Positions 9,201-46,683 of a DNA stretch of 64,000 nt are shown in pieces (positions within the stretch are counted from its first letter, which is position 1; the number at the start of each line of letters is the position of its first letter). A program made the position numbers and the translations under genes. Source of the stretch: Siphonobacter aquaeclarae (GTDB lineage Bacteria; Bacteroidota; Bacteroidia; Cytophagales; Spirosomataceae). The notes under the pieces are model-generated. The model saw only the letters and a list, made by a program, of their open reading frames with translations. It searched no databases and was not told where the DNA came from. Location of the stretch: positions 124,001 to 188,000 of the forward strand of contig NZ_FNGS01000002.1 in assembly GCF_900103285.1 (NCBI RefSeq), in the 5' to 3' direction.

Positions 9201-9430
9201 GTGGTACCCTTGACCTGAATGGTGACGCCGCTGAGGCCGGCGCCTTTTTCGTCCACTACCTGCCCCGTTACACGAATGTCGGCTACAGAAGGGCCGGCCG
9301 GTCTCCCGGGGGCGGGTTGGGTGACCGGTAAGCCGGAGGGCATCCGGGCCGTTAATCCTGCTCCCTGGACCAGGCCAGGGACTGCACACGCCATCATACC
9401 CCACGCTGCGAACTGATAAATCTGTTTCAT
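6275..9430 (-). CDS. SusC/RagA-type TonB-linked outer-membrane transporter
   Basis: 1051 residues with a signal peptide (ending near VQGAG), a CarboxypepD_reg-like domain (about 50-130: VTGQVVDEKGAGLSGVTIQV, TDSQGNFQL), the linker LNEVVVVGYG where SusC plugs begin, a plug domain (about 140-260, with DPLYVVDGFP and NPDEIEDISILKDAAS), and a long beta-barrel ending in NLKF, the usual C-terminal aromatic residue. It imports a SusD-captured ligand using TonB energy. The length is normal for SusC. It is the first gene of the minus-strand locus, behind a 490-bp leader with a dyad. No STN domain or FecI/FecR pair is attached, so control is probably by another regulator. Confidence 0.96.
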   Translation of the reverse strand: MKQIYQFAAWGMMACAVPGLVQGAGLTARMPSGLPVTQPAPGRPAGPSVADIRVTGQVVDEKGAGLSGVTIQVKGTTKGTTTDSQGNFQLVVPNEQSVLLFSFVGYKSKEVPVGKQTTLHVTMDVNDQVLNEVVVVGYGSQLKREITGAVQTLSSTELKDIPVSQIGQKLQGRLAGVQINQTTGKPGQGMNIRIRGQVSVSAGSDPLYVVDGFPITGNIAQLNPDEIEDISILKDAASTSLYGSRAANGVVLITTKKGKIGQTNVSFDAYAGIQQVPKHGRLEMMNAQEFAQFKKEYYQDGGQAVPTEFQNPEQYAGKNNDWYDALLRVAPIQSYTLSVSSNKERSNTSLVAGVFNQQGVVINNAYKRYSLRLNSNYNLSDRVAVGFNVAPSYVYDNTPRSDGDRGTGILFNALHTWPIMPIRDANGELTKYNQLPSSTGNIYAYPNWVRAAKEITNETKNTNLLSNAYITYSPIKGLSLKSTINIEYLNSKYFWFNPSTATANINVPIPTTAVSIRQSVENISWLNENLATYARSFGDHHFELLGGFTNQHFRQDVTRITANTYSDDRLPTIQGAINIDRTGTNNQVNAWALTSYLSRLTYNYKGKYLFTAAIRTDGSSRFGSNNRWGTFPSASLGWVVSDENFLQSVRQVSFAKLRASYGVIGNNNIGNYTQYALVNNTVNAVFGGNVATGAAVTSLSNPNLGWETTKQFDFGLDLGLFNDRIQLVYDFYTKRTTNLLYAVQIPQEAGFTNFNDNIGEIKFWGHEIAVNTKNTTGRFKWNTSANISFNRNKVMALAPGIDRVYGSFHITQVGKPFGQFYGLVSQGMYMNQEDLNSSPQIPGRSAVGTIKLKDVNGDGVITYGGDMDDRTILGSPFPKFVYGLTNTFQFGSWDMAIVGSGSFGNKLWMRHLYSTANLDGVFNMVKKAIHRFRSPQDPGDGIFGTTVGGGNFTGVERDWPNSHFLYDASYFTIKNITVGYNFGAMRKFFKSARLYASCQQVYVFTKYWGGNNPETSAQGDGNGDGGNLSQGVDLSNYPVPRTYTLGLNLKF

Positions 9431-9520
9431 CGGTTTGAGATTATGATTAAGAGGCTACTGCGGAAAAGGAAATAATCTAATCGGGCCTTCAAATATTGAT
9501 ATATTAATTACCCTAACCCT

Positions 9521-9557
9521 CCTGCACTTACCTGCATGACGGGCAGGTAAGTACAGG
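9521..9557. promoter_or_regulatory. Inverted repeat, candidate regulator site upstream of susC
   Basis: 15-bp arms (9521-9535 and 9543-9557) with one mismatch around a 7-nt centre; core half site ACTTACCTGC facing GCAGGTAAGT. It lies about 25 bp upstream of the putative minus-strand promoter, a position suited to an activator. There is no T tract, so it is unlikely to be a terminator. Confidence 0.5.
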
Positions 9558-9837
9558 ACGGTTCAGTCATTGAATGCATCAGAACAGACTATTAATCAGA
9601 AGAATACGCAGTACGTTACCGGTAATCCCGCAAAAAAGAAAAAGTGATCTTTTATTCTTTTAAAACAAAACACGGTGAAAGTCCTTAGAATAGTCCTTTT
9701 GAATTTCACGGAATTATCCTATTTCGATTTATCGTACGAAAAACAACGGAAAAGCCCCCACTGCTTACAGGTATCAGTCTCCTGTATATCAATCTATTCG
9801 CAGAAAAATACCGTCCGGAAAACAGACAAATACCCAC

Positions 9838-36190: not shown

Positions 36191-37015
36191 ATGAAAGCAC
36201 TGTTCGATCACGTCAGCCTCCGGTGCAGCCGGATGATTACCCGCACCTACAGTACGTCCTTTTCCCTCGGTATCCGCTTGCTGGCAAAGCCGTTCAGGGA
36301 TCCCGTTTACTCCCTGTATGGCTTTGTCCGGCTGGCGGACGAAATCGTTGACTCCTTTCACGAGTACCCCAAAGAGCGGTTGCTGAACCAATTCCGTCAG
36401 CAAACCAACGAGGCCCTGGCCGATGGTATCAGCCTGAATCCGGTCCTGAACAGTTTTCAGTCGGTCGTACACCGGTATGCCATCGACCGGGAGCTGATTG
36501 ATACCTTTCTGGATAGCATGGAGATGGACCTGCAGCAGCAGTTTTACACCCGGAGCCTGTATGAAAAATACATCCTTGGATCGGCGGAAGTAGTAGGTCT
36601 CATGTGTCTCCGGGTTTTCACGGACGGAGATAACCAGGCTTATGAATCGCTCCGGTATCCGGCGATGAAACTCGGTTCCGCCTTTCAGAAGGTTAATTTT
36701 TTGAGGGATGTGCGGGCAGACAGCCAGGAATTGGGCCGTGTTTATTTTCCGCATGTAAATTTGGAGCGGTTTTCGGCGGAGGACAAAGCCGCGATTGAAG
36801 CGGAGATCGAAGCCGACTTCCGGGAGGCACTGACGGGTATCCGGCAACTGCCGGCGGGCGCACGCAAAGGCGTCTTTCTGGCATACAGTTATTACCGGAT
36901 ACTGTTTGACAAAATACGCCGCCTCCCGCCGCAGCGGATCATGACCGAACGGATACGCGTTCCGAACGCGCAGAAATTCGGCCTGATGCTGCGAACGATG
37001 GTCTCGACAGCATGA
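36191..37015 (+). CDS. crtB: Phytoene synthase (squalene/phytoene synthase family)
   Basis: 274 residues from the ATG at 36191 (MKALFDHVSLRCSRMITRTY); the upstream TTG frame would start inside the -33 box. Both aspartate-rich motifs are present: LADEIVD (first) and FLRDVRAD (second), which bind Mg-diphosphate. Also typical are TYSTSFSLGIRLLAKPFRDPVYSLYGFVR (in parts) and GSAEVVGLMCLRVF. It condenses two geranylgeranyl diphosphates to phytoene, the first committed carotenoid step. Its stop overlaps the idi start (ATGA). The remaining crt genes are not in the window. A CarH-like regulator is divergent, so light is the likely cue. Confidence 0.95.
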   Translation: MKALFDHVSLRCSRMITRTYSTSFSLGIRLLAKPFRDPVYSLYGFVRLADEIVDSFHEYPKERLLNQFRQQTNEALADGISLNPVLNSFQSVVHRYAIDRELIDTFLDSMEMDLQQQFYTRSLYEKYILGSAEVVGLMCLRVFTDGDNQAYESLRYPAMKLGSAFQKVNFLRDVRADSQELGRVYFPHVNLERFSAEDKAAIEAEIEADFREALTGIRQLPAGARKGVFLAYSYYRILFDKIRRLPPQRIMTERIRVPNAQKFGLMLRTMVSTA

Positions 37016-37533
37016 ACGAACAAGTCATTTTGGTAGATACGGCCGACCGTCCCGTCGGCCAAATGGAAAAAATGCAGGCGCACCGCGAAGGTCGCCTGCA
37101 CAGGGCGTTCTCGGTCTTTCTTTTCAACGATCACGACCAGGTCCTGCTGCAACGCCGGGCGCTGGAGAAGTACCATTCGGGCGGACTCTGGTCGAATACC
37201 TGTTGCAGTCATCCCCGGCCGGGCGAGGACACGCAGGTCGCGGCCGAACGGCGGCTGTTCGAAGAAATGGGCATTACCTGCCGCGTATTTCCTTCTTTCA
37301 GCTTTGTCTACGAAGTACCACTGGATCAGGGACTTACCGAACATGAATACGATCACGTCTTCATTGGTCGGTTTTCCGGCACGCCGGAGGTCAACCCGGA
37401 AGAAGTAGCCGACTGGGCTTACCGCGATGTCGCCGAAGTGGAAGCCGACCTCCTGCAAAATCCCGCGCGGTACAGCGAATGGTTTCGGATTGCGTTTCCG
37501 GAGCTTGTAAAGCGCATGGGGCAGGGGGGTTAA
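37012..37533 (+). CDS. idi: Isopentenyl-diphosphate delta-isomerase, type 1
   Basis: 173 residues. A Nudix-type protein with LVDTADRPVGQMEKMQAHREGRLHRAFSVFLFND (in parts), the active-site Cys region WSNTCCSHPRPGED, the Nudix-like stretch AAERRLFEEMGITC and EHEYDHVFIG with metal-binding Glu/His. It interconverts IPP and DMAPP, supplying precursors for geranylgeranyl diphosphate. The start overlaps crtB by ATGA, so the pair is translated together. The 3' end runs into a heptamer array, and the last codons (GGG CAG GGG GGT) resemble the repeat units. Confidence 0.96.
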   Translation: MNEQVILVDTADRPVGQMEKMQAHREGRLHRAFSVFLFNDHDQVLLQRRALEKYHSGGLWSNTCCSHPRPGEDTQVAAERRLFEEMGITCRVFPSFSFVYEVPLDQGLTEHEYDHVFIGRFSGTPEVNPEEVADWAYRDVAEVEADLLQNPARYSEWFRIAFPELVKRMGQGG

Positions 37534-37534
37534 A

Positions 37535-37620
37535 GGCTGTAAGCTTTAGGCGGTAGGCAATAGGCGAAGGCACGTCCCCCTTGGGCCCTATGCCCTATGC
37601 CCTATGCCCCATGCCCCTCA
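37535..37620. repeat. Inverted pair of heptamer arrays at the idi/nhaA convergent junction
   Basis: Arm A (37535-37569, plus): GGCTGTA, AGCTTTA, GGCGGTA, GGCAATA, GGCGAAG. Arm B (37586-37620) reads CCCTATG three times, CCCCATG, CCCCTCA on the plus strand; on the minus strand these are RGC-type heptamers in a shifted phase. The nhaA stop (37595-37597) and last codons lie inside arm B. Confidence 0.85.
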
Positions 37621-38782
37621 GCACCCCATATCCCACCAGCCCCGAAGCCACCGAAGCGGTCAGAATCGCGAATTTGGCGGTGAGCTGGTAATGAGGATCA
37701 GCGAAGGAGAGCAGCGCGACAAAAATCGACATCGTAAACCCGATACCGCCCAATAAGCCCAGCCCCAGGAGGTGACCCCACCGGGCCTTACGAGGCATAG
37801 TCCCCCACCCCAGCTTTACCACCAGTCTGGATGTCAACAGAATACCCAGCGGCTTTCCCAGAAACAAGCCAAGCAGAATGCCTAACCCCAGCGGTTCGGT
37901 CAATCCCTGCGTCATCCCCGGTTCAAAGCGGATATTGGTATTCACCAGCGCAAAAACAGGCATAATCAGGAAGTTGACGGGCTTTGTCAGCGCATGTTCC
38001 AGTTTTTCGAGGGGAGATTCCTGCGCGCCTTCGTTGGTGGGAATAGCCAGCGCCGTCAATACTCCGGCGATGGTCGCGTGCACCCCCGAATGGTGAACCA
38101 GGTACCAGATCACCACACCTGGTATCAGGTAGGCAGCCAGGTTACGGACGCCGAGCTTATTGAGCCCGAGCAGCGCCGCGAAAATAGCCAGCGCCGTTGC
38201 CAGGTAGGTAAAATGGATTTCGGAGGAATAGAAAACGGCGATAACGAGAATAGCGATCAGGTCGTCTACAATGGCCAGCGCTGCCAGAAAAATCTTCAGT
38301 GACGCCGGTACTTTATCGCCGAGCAGGGAGAGAATCCCGATTGCGAAGGCAATGTCGGTCGCCATCGGAATACCCCATCCGGCCGCCGCCGGCTGGCCGT
38401 TATTCAACAGCGCATATATCAGCGCCGGCAGCACCGCCCCACCAAAGGCGGCAAAAACCGGGAGGCTTGCCTGCTGCGGAGACGACAGCTCTCCTTCCAC
38501 CAGTTCCCGTTTGATTTCGAGGCCGACAAGCAGAAAAAAGACAGCCATCAGCCCGTCGTTCACCCATTCGAGCAGGGTAAAAGACAGGTGGAAACCGTCG
38601 GTATGAATACCTGCCTCCGTTTCCAGAAAGGCCGCAAACCGTTCGCCGGCCGCGGAATTGGCGATAGCCAGTGATACCACAACACTCAGCAACAGGATGA
38701 TACCGCCAACCGAACCGGAAGCAAAAAAATCCCGGAAGGGCTGGAGATTGATACGCGGACGGCGGGAGGAGACTTGTTTCAT
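37595..38782 (-). CDS. nhaA: Na+/H+ antiporter NhaA
   Basis: 395 residues, normal for NhaA. Recognised from LEWVNDGLMAVFFLLVGLEIKRE (in part), LPVFAAFGGAVLPALIYAL, GWGIPMATDIAFAIGILSLLG (with the ATDIAFA core), LAALAIVDDLIAILVIAVFY (containing the two adjacent Asp that exchange Na+ and H+), and PVNFLIMPVFALVNTNI. About eleven or twelve membrane helices. It exports Na+ for inward H+ at high pH or salt. The C-terminal residues RGMGHRA and the stop are encoded by repeat units of a heptamer array, so the tail is probably not conserved. Transcribed alone. Confidence 0.96.
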   Translation of the reverse strand: MKQVSSRRPRINLQPFRDFFASGSVGGIILLLSVVVSLAIANSAAGERFAAFLETEAGIHTDGFHLSFTLLEWVNDGLMAVFFLLVGLEIKRELVEGELSSPQQASLPVFAAFGGAVLPALIYALLNNGQPAAAGWGIPMATDIAFAIGILSLLGDKVPASLKIFLAALAIVDDLIAILVIAVFYSSEIHFTYLATALAIFAALLGLNKLGVRNLAAYLIPGVVIWYLVHHSGVHATIAGVLTALAIPTNEGAQESPLEKLEHALTKPVNFLIMPVFALVNTNIRFEPGMTQGLTEPLGLGILLGLFLGKPLGILLTSRLVVKLGWGTMPRKARWGHLLGLGLLGGIGFTMSIFVALLSFADPHYQLTAKFAILTASVASGLVGYGVLRGMGHRA

Positions 38783-44798: not shown

Positions 44799-45217
44799 CA
44801 GTCTTATATCAGGCCGCAGCGACGGCCAAAGGAGGCCGCAACGGCCACGTTCGTTCCGACAACGGCATTCTCGACCTCCAGGTACGCATGCCGAAAGCCC
44901 TCGGCGGTGCAAATGATGACTTTGCCAACCCCGAAATGCTCTTTGCGGCCGGTTACTCCGCCTGTTTCGACAGCGCGCTGAGCCGCGTGATCCGCATGGA
45001 AAAAGTGCAGACAGGAGAAACGACCGTCACCGCGCACGTTGGCATCGGTCCGAACGCGGAAGGCGGTTTCGGCCTGGCAGTAGAGCTGGAAGTCAACGTA
45101 CCCGGCGTAGACGCTGAAACGGCGCAGGCGCTTGTTGCCAAAGCCCACCAGGTATGCCCCTACTCCAACGCTACCCGCGGCAATATCGAGGTCAAACTGA
45201 CCGTCACAAATCATTAA
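44795..45217 (+). CDS. ohr: Organic hydroperoxide resistance protein Ohr
   Basis: 140 residues, full length for Ohr/OsmC. Both catalytic cysteines are present: Cys57 in GYSACFDSAL and Cys121 in VCPYSNATRGN. The N-terminal YQAAATAKGGRNGHVRSDNG and GGANDDFANPEMLFAAGYSA (in part) are diagnostic. It is a thiol peroxidase that reduces alkyl and lipid hydroperoxides, regenerated by lipoylated proteins. Co-transcribed with ohrR through an ATGA overlap. The downstream nitroreductase, 11 nt away, may be a third member of the regulon. Confidence 0.97.
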   Translation: MTVLYQAAATAKGGRNGHVRSDNGILDLQVRMPKALGGANDDFANPEMLFAAGYSACFDSALSRVIRMEKVQTGETTVTAHVGIGPNAEGGFGLAVELEVNVPGVDAETAQALVAKAHQVCPYSNATRGNIEVKLTVTNH

Positions 45218-45228
45218 TCAAAACGAAA

Positions 45229-45870
45229 ATGGCTTTATTAGATGATCTTCAGTGGCGTTATGCCACCAAGAAATACGACCCGACAAAACAGGTTCCGAAG
45301 GAATATGTCGATAAAATTGTAGAAGCGGCCCGCCTCGCGCCGACCTCTTCCGGCCTGCAGCCGTTCCGCGTCATCGTCGTCACCGATCCGGAACTGAAAG
45401 AAAAGCTCGTTCCCATTGCCTCAGGCCAGCGGGTAGTGGCTGACGCCTCGCACGTACTGATTTTTGCCGCCTGGGATCGCTACACCGAAGAACGCATTGA
45501 CGATGTGTACGACCGCACGACGGACGAACGTGGCCTTCCCCGCGGCCGGTTTGGCTCCTACACCGACAAGCTGAAGGCCCTGTATTTGCGTCAGGAAGCC
45601 GATGTCAACTTTGCCCATGCGGCGCGCCAGGCTTACATCGGTTTCGGCCTTTCCATTGCACAGGCGGCGGAACTCAAAGTGGACGCGACGCCGATGGAAG
45701 GCTTCTCCGGCCCGGAGCTAGATGCCTTGCTGGACCTGCCTTCAAAAGGCCTCCGGAGTGTTCTGATGCTGCCCCTCGGCTACCGCGACGCGGAAAACGA
45801 CTGGCTCCACCCCATGAAAAAAGTCCGCAGCCCGAGGGAAGAGTTTGTGTTGGATGGGGATCGGCTGTAG
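45229..45870 (+). CDS. NAD(P)H-dependent nitroreductase family oxidoreductase
   Basis: 213 residues from the ATG at 45229 (MALLDDLQWRYATKKYDPTK). The nitroreductase FMN pattern is present: RYATKKYDPTKQV, EAARLAPTSSGLQPF, AARQAYIGFGLSIAQAAEL, GFSGPELDALLDLPSKGL and LPLGYRDAENDW. These are homodimeric flavoproteins that reduce nitroaromatics, quinones or enals with NAD(P)H. The position 11 nt after ohr suggests oxidative-stress use, perhaps quinone or enal reduction. Its last codons and stop (TAG 45868-45870) fall in the first two units of a heptamer array. Confidence 0.92.
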   Translation: MALLDDLQWRYATKKYDPTKQVPKEYVDKIVEAARLAPTSSGLQPFRVIVVTDPELKEKLVPIASGQRVVADASHVLIFAAWDRYTEERIDDVYDRTTDERGLPRGRFGSYTDKLKALYLRQEADVNFAHAARQAYIGFGLSIAQAAELKVDATPMEGFSGPELDALLDLPSKGLRSVLMLPLGYRDAENDWLHPMKKVRSPREEFVLDGDRL

Positions 45871-45967
45871 GCGGACGGCAGTCAGCTATCGGCTATCAGC
45901 TATCGGCGGGCGGCGGTCAGCTATCGGCTTTAAGCTGTAGGCAATAGGCTTTAGGCTAAAGGCGGGC
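45863..45967 (+). repeat. Array of 15 heptamers RGCNNNN after the nitroreductase gene
   Basis: Fifteen units in unbroken 7-bp phase, each starting GGC or AGC: for example GGCTGTA, AGCTATC, GGCTATC, GGCTTTA, AGCTGTA, GGCAATA, GGCTAAA, GGCGGGC. It starts inside the coding sequence (stop TAG spans units 1 and 2) and leads to the hairpin at 45981-46030. Confidence 0.95.
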
Positions 45968-45980
45968 AACCTCAGGTGTT

Positions 45981-46030
45981 ATTAAAGGAAAAGTGCTTCC
46001 CTGTATGAGGGGAAGCACTTTTCCTTTAAT
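45981..46030. terminator. Convergent-junction terminator hairpin between heptamer arrays
   Basis: Perfect 21-bp stem (45981-46001 with 46010-46030) and 8-nt loop. The arms begin ATTAAAGG, so T-rich stretches end both strands, consistent with bidirectional termination. It is flanked by heptamer arrays in opposite orientation. Confidence 0.85.
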
Positions 46031-46072
46031 CAAATTCTCAACATGTTTCGCCGTCATTACGGACACTTCTCC

Positions 46073-46135
46073 ACTCGCCTAAAGCTTACTGCTTACAGCT
46101 TAAAGCCGATAGCCGGCTGCCGCCCGCCGATAGCC
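46073..46135 (-). repeat. Array of nine heptamers RGCNNNN after the tag gene
   Basis: On the minus strand: GGCTATC, GGCGGGC, GGCAGCC, GGCTATC, GGCTTTA, AGCTGTA, AGCAGTA, AGCTTTA, GGCGAGT, in perfect 7-bp phase (46135 down to 46073). The stop TAG of tag uses the first base of unit one. It is the near mirror image of the plus-strand array at 45863-45967. Confidence 0.95.
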
Positions 46136-46683
46136 TACCTCATCCACAACGGCTTGCTCTCCACTACCTGCTGGTATACCGGGCAGGCTTCGCTGTGCGC
46201 GCCGGGGAGGTAACCGATGCTCATGAGAAACTCGCCGACGATTTCACCACCGGTGAAGCGGAAGGTCTTCTTAAACAGTTTCACCCATTCTTCTTTGGAT
46301 TTCGGGTGATGGGATTCCAGCCATTTTTCGAAAGAACCGTGGGAGGCCTGCAGCCCCTGGATGGTCCGGGCATTTTCGATGGCGGCGTTGATTTTCAATT
46401 TGTTGCGGATAATACCGGGGTCGCGCATTAAACGCTCGCGGTCGGTCTCGGTATAGGCCGCGACGACGTCGATGACAAAATTATCGTATGCTTTCCGGAA
46501 GGTTTCTTCCTTTTTGAGAATAGTCTCCCAGCTCAGACCGGCCTGGTTGATTTCCAGAATGAGCCGGCCGAAAAGTTCATTGTCGTCGTGAATCGGAAAG
46601 CCATAATGCTGATCGTGATAGGCTTTGTGCAGGGCCTGCCGCTCGGCGGGCTGCATGGTTGAGATAGCGAAGCAGTAGGACAT
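46135..46683 (-). CDS. tag: DNA-3-methyladenine glycosylase I
   Basis: 182 residues from the ATG at 46683 (MSYCFAISTMQPAERQALHK). Tag hallmarks: YHDQHYGFPIHDDNELFGRL, LEINQAGLSWETILKKEETFRKAYDNF (in parts), DPGIIRNKLKINAAIENA, and the C-terminal zinc-site region GAHSEACPVYQQV, with HSEAC matching His and Cys ligands. It removes 3-methyladenine from alkylated DNA. It stands alone; the in-frame ATG 150 nt upstream would add a stretch with no family match. Its stop adjoins the heptamer array. Confidence 0.94.
   Translation of the reverse strand: MSYCFAISTMQPAERQALHKAYHDQHYGFPIHDDNELFGRLILEINQAGLSWETILKKEETFRKAYDNFVIDVVAAYTETDRERLMRDPGIIRNKLKINAAIENARTIQGLQASHGSFEKWLESHHPKSKEEWVKLFKKTFRFTGGEIVGEFLMSIGYLPGAHSEACPVYQQVVESKPLWMR

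Follow-up and report, generated by a model that had tools for sequence, protein, structure and literature searches.

The DNA analysed here (the window) is a 64,000-nt stretch of the Siphonobacter aquaeclarae genome, a 6.19-Mb draft in 19 contigs, and lies within a contig of 896,379 bp (C7). At one junction in the window, a nitroreductase-family gene and a methyladenine glycosylase gene converge, and two arrays of degenerate heptamers face each other between them across a hairpin (Table 1). The unit counts and unbroken phase of the original prediction proved exact. When the window was shuffled 50 times under a second-order Markov model, neither strand had a run of at least five RGCNNNN units, and runs of four arose at 0.3 per shuffle. 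The arms also supply stop-codon bases, as had been claimed: the TAG of the nitroreductase-family gene (45868-45870) lies entirely within the left arm, and the TAG of the glycosylase gene (46137-46135, minus strand) has one base in common with the right arm. This copy sits between two protein genes, not in a 23S rRNA gene, and there is no ORF between its arms. An Rfam search of the window gave zero matches.

Table 1. Facing heptamer arms of the window and the features around them
Feature	Position	Strand	Remarks
Nitroreductase-family gene (PF00881)	45229..45870	+	Stop codon within left arm; family assigned with a longer ORF starting at 45154
Left arm	45863..45967	+	15 RGCNNNN heptamers, unbroken 7-bp phase
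Perfect 21-bp hairpin between arms	45981-46001 / 46010-46030		8-nt loop; probable bidirectional terminator, by eye
Right arm	46073..46135	-	9 RGCNNNN heptamers (46135-46073), opposed to left arm
Methyladenine glycosylase gene (PF03352)	46135..46683	-	Stop codon touching right arm
Second facing pair, left arm	37535..37569	+	5 heptamers right after the stop of a NUDIX gene (37012-37533)
Second facing pair, right arm	37581..37615	-	5 heptamers, flavour GGCATRG; overlaps final 21 bases of a Na+/H+ antiporter gene (37595-38782)

The perfect hairpin between the arms can be read directly from the sequence. A terminator-pattern scanner did not list it. By eye it still looks like a bidirectional terminator, as its GC-rich inner stem (about 10 bp) leads into TTTTCCTTT on both strands; the arms thus probably enclose a normal terminator that serves the two convergent genes. 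The whole junction can indeed fold into one long stem, with z-scores for arm pairing of –17.8 (plus strand) and –14.7 (minus strand) relative to 200 dinucleotide shuffles each; facing arms of a single unit type would yield such strong scores anyway. The second facing pair of the window (37535-37615) likewise lies at a convergent junction and is shorter than the first. The GGCATRG flavour of its minus arm recurs at C7:302968-303031 and C7:866478-866505.

A dispersed family in gene spacers

The original prediction proposed a search for further copies, and the genome holds many. Used as a DNA query, the left array gave 65 matches at E ≤ 1, itself included, and a 35-nt profile of five units gave at least 148 (150 of 1226 candidates scored). 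The unit consensus is RGCTNTA, or TARGC-type. Contig C7 was tiled entirely, and 714 genes were identified on it with a home-made caller, so gene ends there are approximate. On this contig, 47 runs of at least five units form 22 clusters, and none of the 47 is centred deeper than 60 bp within a gene. Eight clusters lie in convergent, 11 in tandem and 3 in divergent spacers, compared with 115, 483 and 115 of the 713 gene junctions. The convergent excess has a p of 0.017 by junctions and 0.034 by share of spacer bases. Convergent spacers are thus mildly over-used, but are a minority of array sites.

We also mapped 138 runs of four or more units relative to genes. Most were sense and downstream of a stop codon (78 runs, median 4 nt) or antisense and upstream of a start (53 runs, median 93 nt), and 7 lay within genes. 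The gene on the 5′ side of the array was the nearer one in 92 cases, versus 39. In 21 further stretches of the genome, one of which overlaps an earlier stretch by about 3.5 kb, 30 runs followed stops (median 18 nt) and 15 preceded starts. Arms run outward from the neighbouring gene, in many cases from its stop codon onward. These data show the arms to be a family spread through the genome, which avoids genes and sits next to stop codons. We also considered whether each unit is selected to carry a stop codon, as the consensus contains TAR, yet units with G as the middle base showed no preference for TGA (7) over TGG (9) in the few cases available, and we rejected this reading.

Polarity is strongly biased. 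Among adjacent runs of four or more units less than 400 bp apart, in 1.17 Mb of this genome's sequence, the facing order (+ –) was seen 40 times, – – 14 times, + + 11 times and – + twice. The 21 further stretches gave 11 facing pairs, 10 – – pairs and no other combination; outside C7, stretches were chosen for their known matches, and array rates from them cannot be taken as densities. Facing polarity is a property of the element itself. Arm lengths and outer ends vary from site to site, and the middles between arms differ across sites. Among 18 gene-less middles of 40 bp or more, none held a PF05635 remnant. Two loci on C7 contain tandem duplications, one with a spacing of about 189 bp (L143, C7:651773-652353) and one with a spacing of 78-85 bp (L146, C7:707236-707672). 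Each duplicate carries a near-identical minus arm, so arms also multiply locally.

Arms share the order of their units beyond what five rounds of unit shuffling produce. At a score of at least 21, there were 14 cases between different loci versus 1.4 after shuffling, and 16 versus 0.2 within the same locus. Arms of one locus also pair with each other better than swapped arms do in this genome (mean rank 0.29 for 40 pairs and 0.35 for 11 pairs); in two genomes of the same class, own arms paired no better than swapped ones. We conclude that arms are copied, as an order of units recurs within a locus and, in some cases, across unlinked loci. Neither an empty site nor movement was observed, and matched congener DNA is only 64-74% alike, in scattered pieces.

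From the sequences, a stem of paired arms at the RNA level is plausible. In the first 19 tandem pairs, G·U exceeded A·C on the transcribed strand by 53:24 (pooled p 0.0013, Wilcoxon p 0.013, sign test p 0.18), yet swapped arms already give a ratio of 1.69, as against 2.21. The excess was not replicated in new loci of this genome (12:19) or in the two same-class genomes (11:18), and all sets pooled give 76:61 (p 0.23). As two further sets failed to reproduce it, we do not claim a G·U preference in RNA.

Heptamer arrays in other genomes

Outside S. aquaeclarae, TARGC-type arrays were found in 8 of 38 relatives (up to 150 candidates scored per genome) and, under a stricter filter with at most 23 candidates scored each, in 46 of 295 others across the phylum. 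None of five congeners had a TARGC match among 150 candidates scored in each. Periodicity was also assessed irrespective of unit. Spacers with strong lag-7 similarity numbered 31 of 480 on C7, 9 of 141 in one congener (G001) and 0 of 123 in E. coli; two members of the family had 6/131 and 3/115, and four other genomes had 1/98, 1/59, 1/68 and 0/50. Across 80 named Bacteroidota loci, lag 7 (4 of 338 spacers) was not above lag 8 (6) or lag 11 (5), and two of the lag-7 hits (L032, L034) are coding, by eye.

Congener G001 uses a different heptamer, GTTTNRG, whose arrays face each other in pairs and lie downstream of stops and upstream of promoter-like boxes. At its locus L219 (13674-13721 and 16312-16371), antisense heptamer arrays end right at promoter-like TAnnTTTG boxes; by eye, the genes behind these boxes resemble an RNase P RNA gene and a ribosomal protein gene. 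The two same-class genomes have 36 and 52 array matches. There, all 13 distinct facing pairs that qualified among the loci examined occupy tandem spacers, and facing pairs occur between hisB and a glutamine amidotransferase gene and between trpC and trpF.

PF05635 genes between arms

The family PF05635, the four-helix-bundle '23S rRNA-intervening sequence protein', has to our knowledge no known function. Matches to it occur in 32 of the 38 relatives, and S. aquaeclarae has two. At one locus (L356 1222-3034, genome G282), groES and groEL are separated by a PF05635 gene that has a facing pair on each side, the two pairs being similar, and this arrangement led us to test PF05635 flanks systematically. 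The Bacteroidota sample comprised 25 genes: 20 loci from 19 genomes (S. aquaeclarae included) picked without regard to arrays, and 5 from array-matched stretches. Controls were 159 genes of 300–600 bp from seven relatives, and flanks of 180 bp were scored. The median inverted-repeat score was 16.8 for PF05635 genes versus 8.6 for controls (p 9e-8), with 13 of the 25 above every control. A periodic flank on either side was found for 20/25 PF05635 genes and 14/159 controls, and periodicity on both flanks for 10/25 and 1/159. The 20 array-blind picks alone gave a median of 15.1 (p 7e-7), with 9 above every control, 15 periodic on either flank and 7 on both. Five of the 25 loci had no periodic flank at threshold. 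L393 and L394 had zero scorable heptamer or octamer arrays; the flanks of L394 nevertheless repeat with a 9-nt period and score high for inverted repeats.

A tblastn search of plasmids found PF05635 relatives in 32 records, mostly from cyanobacteria. In 12 of these records, compared with 130 control genes taken from 150 kb across three of these plasmids, every PF05635 gene had a periodic flank on either side (12/12 versus 12/130, p 3e-11), and 7 of the 12 had both flanks periodic, versus 1 of 130. At three of these plasmid loci (L395, L399, L402), a CRISPR cas operon encloses the PF05635 gene, at cas6|cas4 in two cases and at cas10|cmr3 in one, with heptamer or octamer arrays on both sides; the arrays at L395 are long, near-perfect and direct, not facing. 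Units at PF05635 loci are diverse, including CAGTTTT, TTAGTCY, GAGGAGT, GGCTGTC, CTAAACC and octamers, and some of the cyanobacterial plasmid loci have G-rich units (GGGAACA, GTAGGGA). Where both flanks could be scored, the unit match was facing at 26 of 32 loci and direct at 6 (p 1e-4). On the statistics of these partial samples, PF05635 genes in Bacteroidota and on cyanobacterial plasmids are flanked by arms, usually with matching, facing units. We did not find a link between PF05635 and intergenic heptamer arrays in the open literature, mostly judged by titles and abstract openings. Within the literature searched, then, the link is unreported and new here, and it is the part worth following.

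In S. aquaeclarae, one of the two PF05635 genes lies between TARGC arms (L392), and the frame of one appears by eye to be broken near the N-terminus. A PF05635 gene occupies the leuC/leuD spacer in this genome, in two congeners (G003, G004) and in two family members (G010, G020). LeuC was identified by its conserved end, by eye, and aconitase families were found on both sides of L246 and on the right side of L392. The leuC/leuD copies at L392 (about 390-749) and L246 (about 9280-9630) have apparently broken reading frames, so arms appear to persist beside decaying genes. The arms at this junction are RGC-type in S. aquaeclarae, G010 and G020 and GTTGTTN in G003 and G004, whose PF05635 protein is also, by eye, of another sequence type. 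At a junction other than leuC/leuD, L168 of S. aquaeclarae and L389 of congener G002 have gene, place and unit in common. Over 35 loci, protein and unit similarity are correlated (Mantel r 0.24, p 0.0002), with an r of 0.11 (p 0.026) below 70% identity and no correlation below 50%. Orthologues at one junction inflate the Mantel r, and cognate pairing of protein and unit is suggestive only. Array counts correlate only modestly with PF05635 counts over the 38 relatives (rho 0.43, p 0.008; 0.38 with S. aquaeclarae added).

Interpretation and relation to known systems

Intervening sequences (IVSs) of 23S rRNA have inverted-repeat ends, carry an ORF of the S23p (IVP) family and are excised by RNase III, and in one species tandem heptamers lie upstream of the S23p ORF in a number that varies between strains (PMC4990558, in the parts covered). 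The same source mentions an S23p gene of X. campestris with a solved structure. These features led us to propose IVS-like elements in spacers, with the window arrays as the arms of a gene-less copy. Taken whole, with all four of its steps, we give this reading an even chance of being right. The element would occupy an intergenic spacer and have two opposed arrays of a degenerate heptamer (at times an octamer) whose sequence depends on the genome or locus; the arms would enclose either no gene or one for a PF05635 four-helix bundle. It would be a spacer-dwelling relative of the rRNA IVS. The first two steps are the dispersed family and the armed PF05635 genes described above. In the third step, by analogy with rRNA, the arms would pair in RNA as a long double-stranded stem, a possible substrate for an RNase III-type enzyme, and such cutting would make the element tolerable between cistrons. 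In the fourth, gene-less copies may arise and spread by arm copying, possibly helped by the PF05635 protein in trans, with both arms of one locus kept alike. Several results weigh against this reading. S. aquaeclarae has 2 PF05635 genes versus 148 or more array matches, the gene-less middles hold no PF05635 remnant, the G·U excess was not replicated, and array counts follow PF05635 counts only modestly. Some PF05635 loci have direct units or no periodic flank at threshold, and lag 7 does not stand out among the named Bacteroidota loci.

A broader version is more tentative. Facing heptamer arrays and PF05635 (IVP/S23/Avd-like) genes could form one element class, found in Bacteroidota, Cyanobacteria and probably Xanthomonas, with the rRNA IVSs included. 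Its protein would recognise its own heptamer and write, copy or homogenise arms at gene ends, and gene-less arms would be non-autonomous copies. Such recognition would account for each genome or locus having its own unit under a constant architecture. The family resembles the Avd subunit of diversity-generating retroelements (PMC10053308, parts covered). A shared architecture across unlike units would weaken the G-quadruplex explanation of the Xanthomonas and Nostoc heptamers and give PF05635 genes a context, and the nature of rRNA intervening sequences would become testable at many intergenic sites, in laboratory bacteria that are harmless.

The arrays could instead be selfish or neutral heptamer satellites without function, a possibility we take seriously but hold less probable than the IVS-like element. 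Slippage would produce the 7-bp tandems, hairpin-templated copying the facing arm, and selection would clear genes; PF05635 genes would merely settle in such spacers. The degeneracy of the units, the different unit of a congener, the local tandem duplications on C7 and an abundance so species-specific that five congeners lack TARGC matches all fit this account. So does the over-representation of heptamers among simple repeats in many bacterial genomes (PMC4692102, in the parts covered). Yet satellites do not predict PF05635 genes between matching facing arms in two phyla, nor a unit order common to unlinked loci.

It is unlikely that the arrays are bidirectional transcription terminators or mRNA 3′-end stabilisers, with arms and hairpin stopping or protecting the neighbouring transcripts. 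Arrays often begin at stop codons, and the arms enclose what by eye resembles a terminator hairpin, both here and at several other sites. But terminator-like signals are no commoner with arrays than without them, at convergent gene 3′ ends (17/35 versus 98/181) or at tandem ones (3/21 versus 130/363; deficit p 0.057). Moreover, some facing pairs sit where a complete stop of transcription would do harm: between hisB and the glutamine amidotransferase gene, between trpC and trpF, and between groES and groEL. Divergent spacers carry arrays too. The arms may still stabilise transcripts. The original prediction had tied the arms to convergent 3′ ends and terminators. Of this, a mild convergent excess (8 of 22 clusters) survives, not a rule, and we rejected a convergent-terminator element as a general reading on the spacer classes, the terminator-signal counts and the 13 tandem pairs of the same-class genomes.

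Spread as REP/BIME-type palindromes by a REP-associated tyrosine transposase is very improbable. The repeats are intergenic and facing, S. aquaeclarae has one Y1_Tnp gene, and Y1 transposase counts correlate weakly with array counts across the 38 relatives (rho 0.35, p 0.03). We rejected this origin nonetheless, since zero arrays of four or more units lie in the 12 kb around that gene and three congeners lack any TARGC match (150 candidates scored in each) although they have 3, 5 and 3 Y1_Tnp matches. A regulatory role as G-quadruplexes has been proposed for the repeats of Xanthomonas and Nostoc. Those repeats have the 7-nt phase, facing pairs and stop-codon contact in common with our arrays (PMC4692102, parts covered), but units such as TARGCNN, GTTTNRG and TTAGTCC show the same architecture without four G-tracts, which makes G-quadruplexes the least credible account.

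The IVS-like element, our preferred reading, has several known counterparts. The short tandemly repeated repetitive (STRR) sequences of filamentous cyanobacteria are heptamer tandem repeats, as are the arrays here; we know of no description of STRRs with facing arms or a PF05635 link. The original prediction had noted a cyanobacterial likeness, and it was right. It had also held that no element of this form was described, which is mistaken: the (GGGAATC)n and GGGGA(C/T)T heptamers of Xanthomonas and Nostoc are published as facing pairs next to stop codons, interpreted as G-quadruplexes (PMC4692102, in the parts covered). Like our arrays, these are degenerate, mostly intergenic tandem heptamers, and the placement of ours is close to their rule, sense near stops and antisense upstream of starts, the latter farther out (median 93 nt). 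They are G-rich, whereas our units lack four G-tracts (consensus RGCTNTA, by eye) and differ between species and loci, and the parts of PMC4692102 covered hold no PF05635 link, unlike the arrays here. We regard the window arrays as the same kind of repeat with non-quadruplex units.

TAACTGA direct repeats occur in Beggiatoaceae, Cyanobacteria and five Bacteroidetes (PMC4679880, parts covered). They are similar in being heptamers that lie mostly between genes, contain stops in every one of the three frames and have a sporadic taxonomic spread, but are direct (with a single indirect repeat in the genome studied), and most lie just upstream of start codons. The BrickBuilt MITE of Porphyromonas gingivalis is likewise an intergenic Bacteroidota element of tandem repeats with small inverted-repeat ends, but its unit is 23 nt and one strain has 19 copies (PMC4596501, parts covered). 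As a class, MITEs have fixed terminal ends and a target-site duplication; the arms here vary between sites in length and outer ends. The 23S rRNA IVS, whose origin and function are called unclear, shares with many of the related loci (L392 included) inverted-repeat ends around a PF05635 ORF, an ORF that the window copy lacks (PMC4990558, in the parts covered). The IVS is located in rRNA and excised by RNase III; the arms described here lie in spacers between protein genes.
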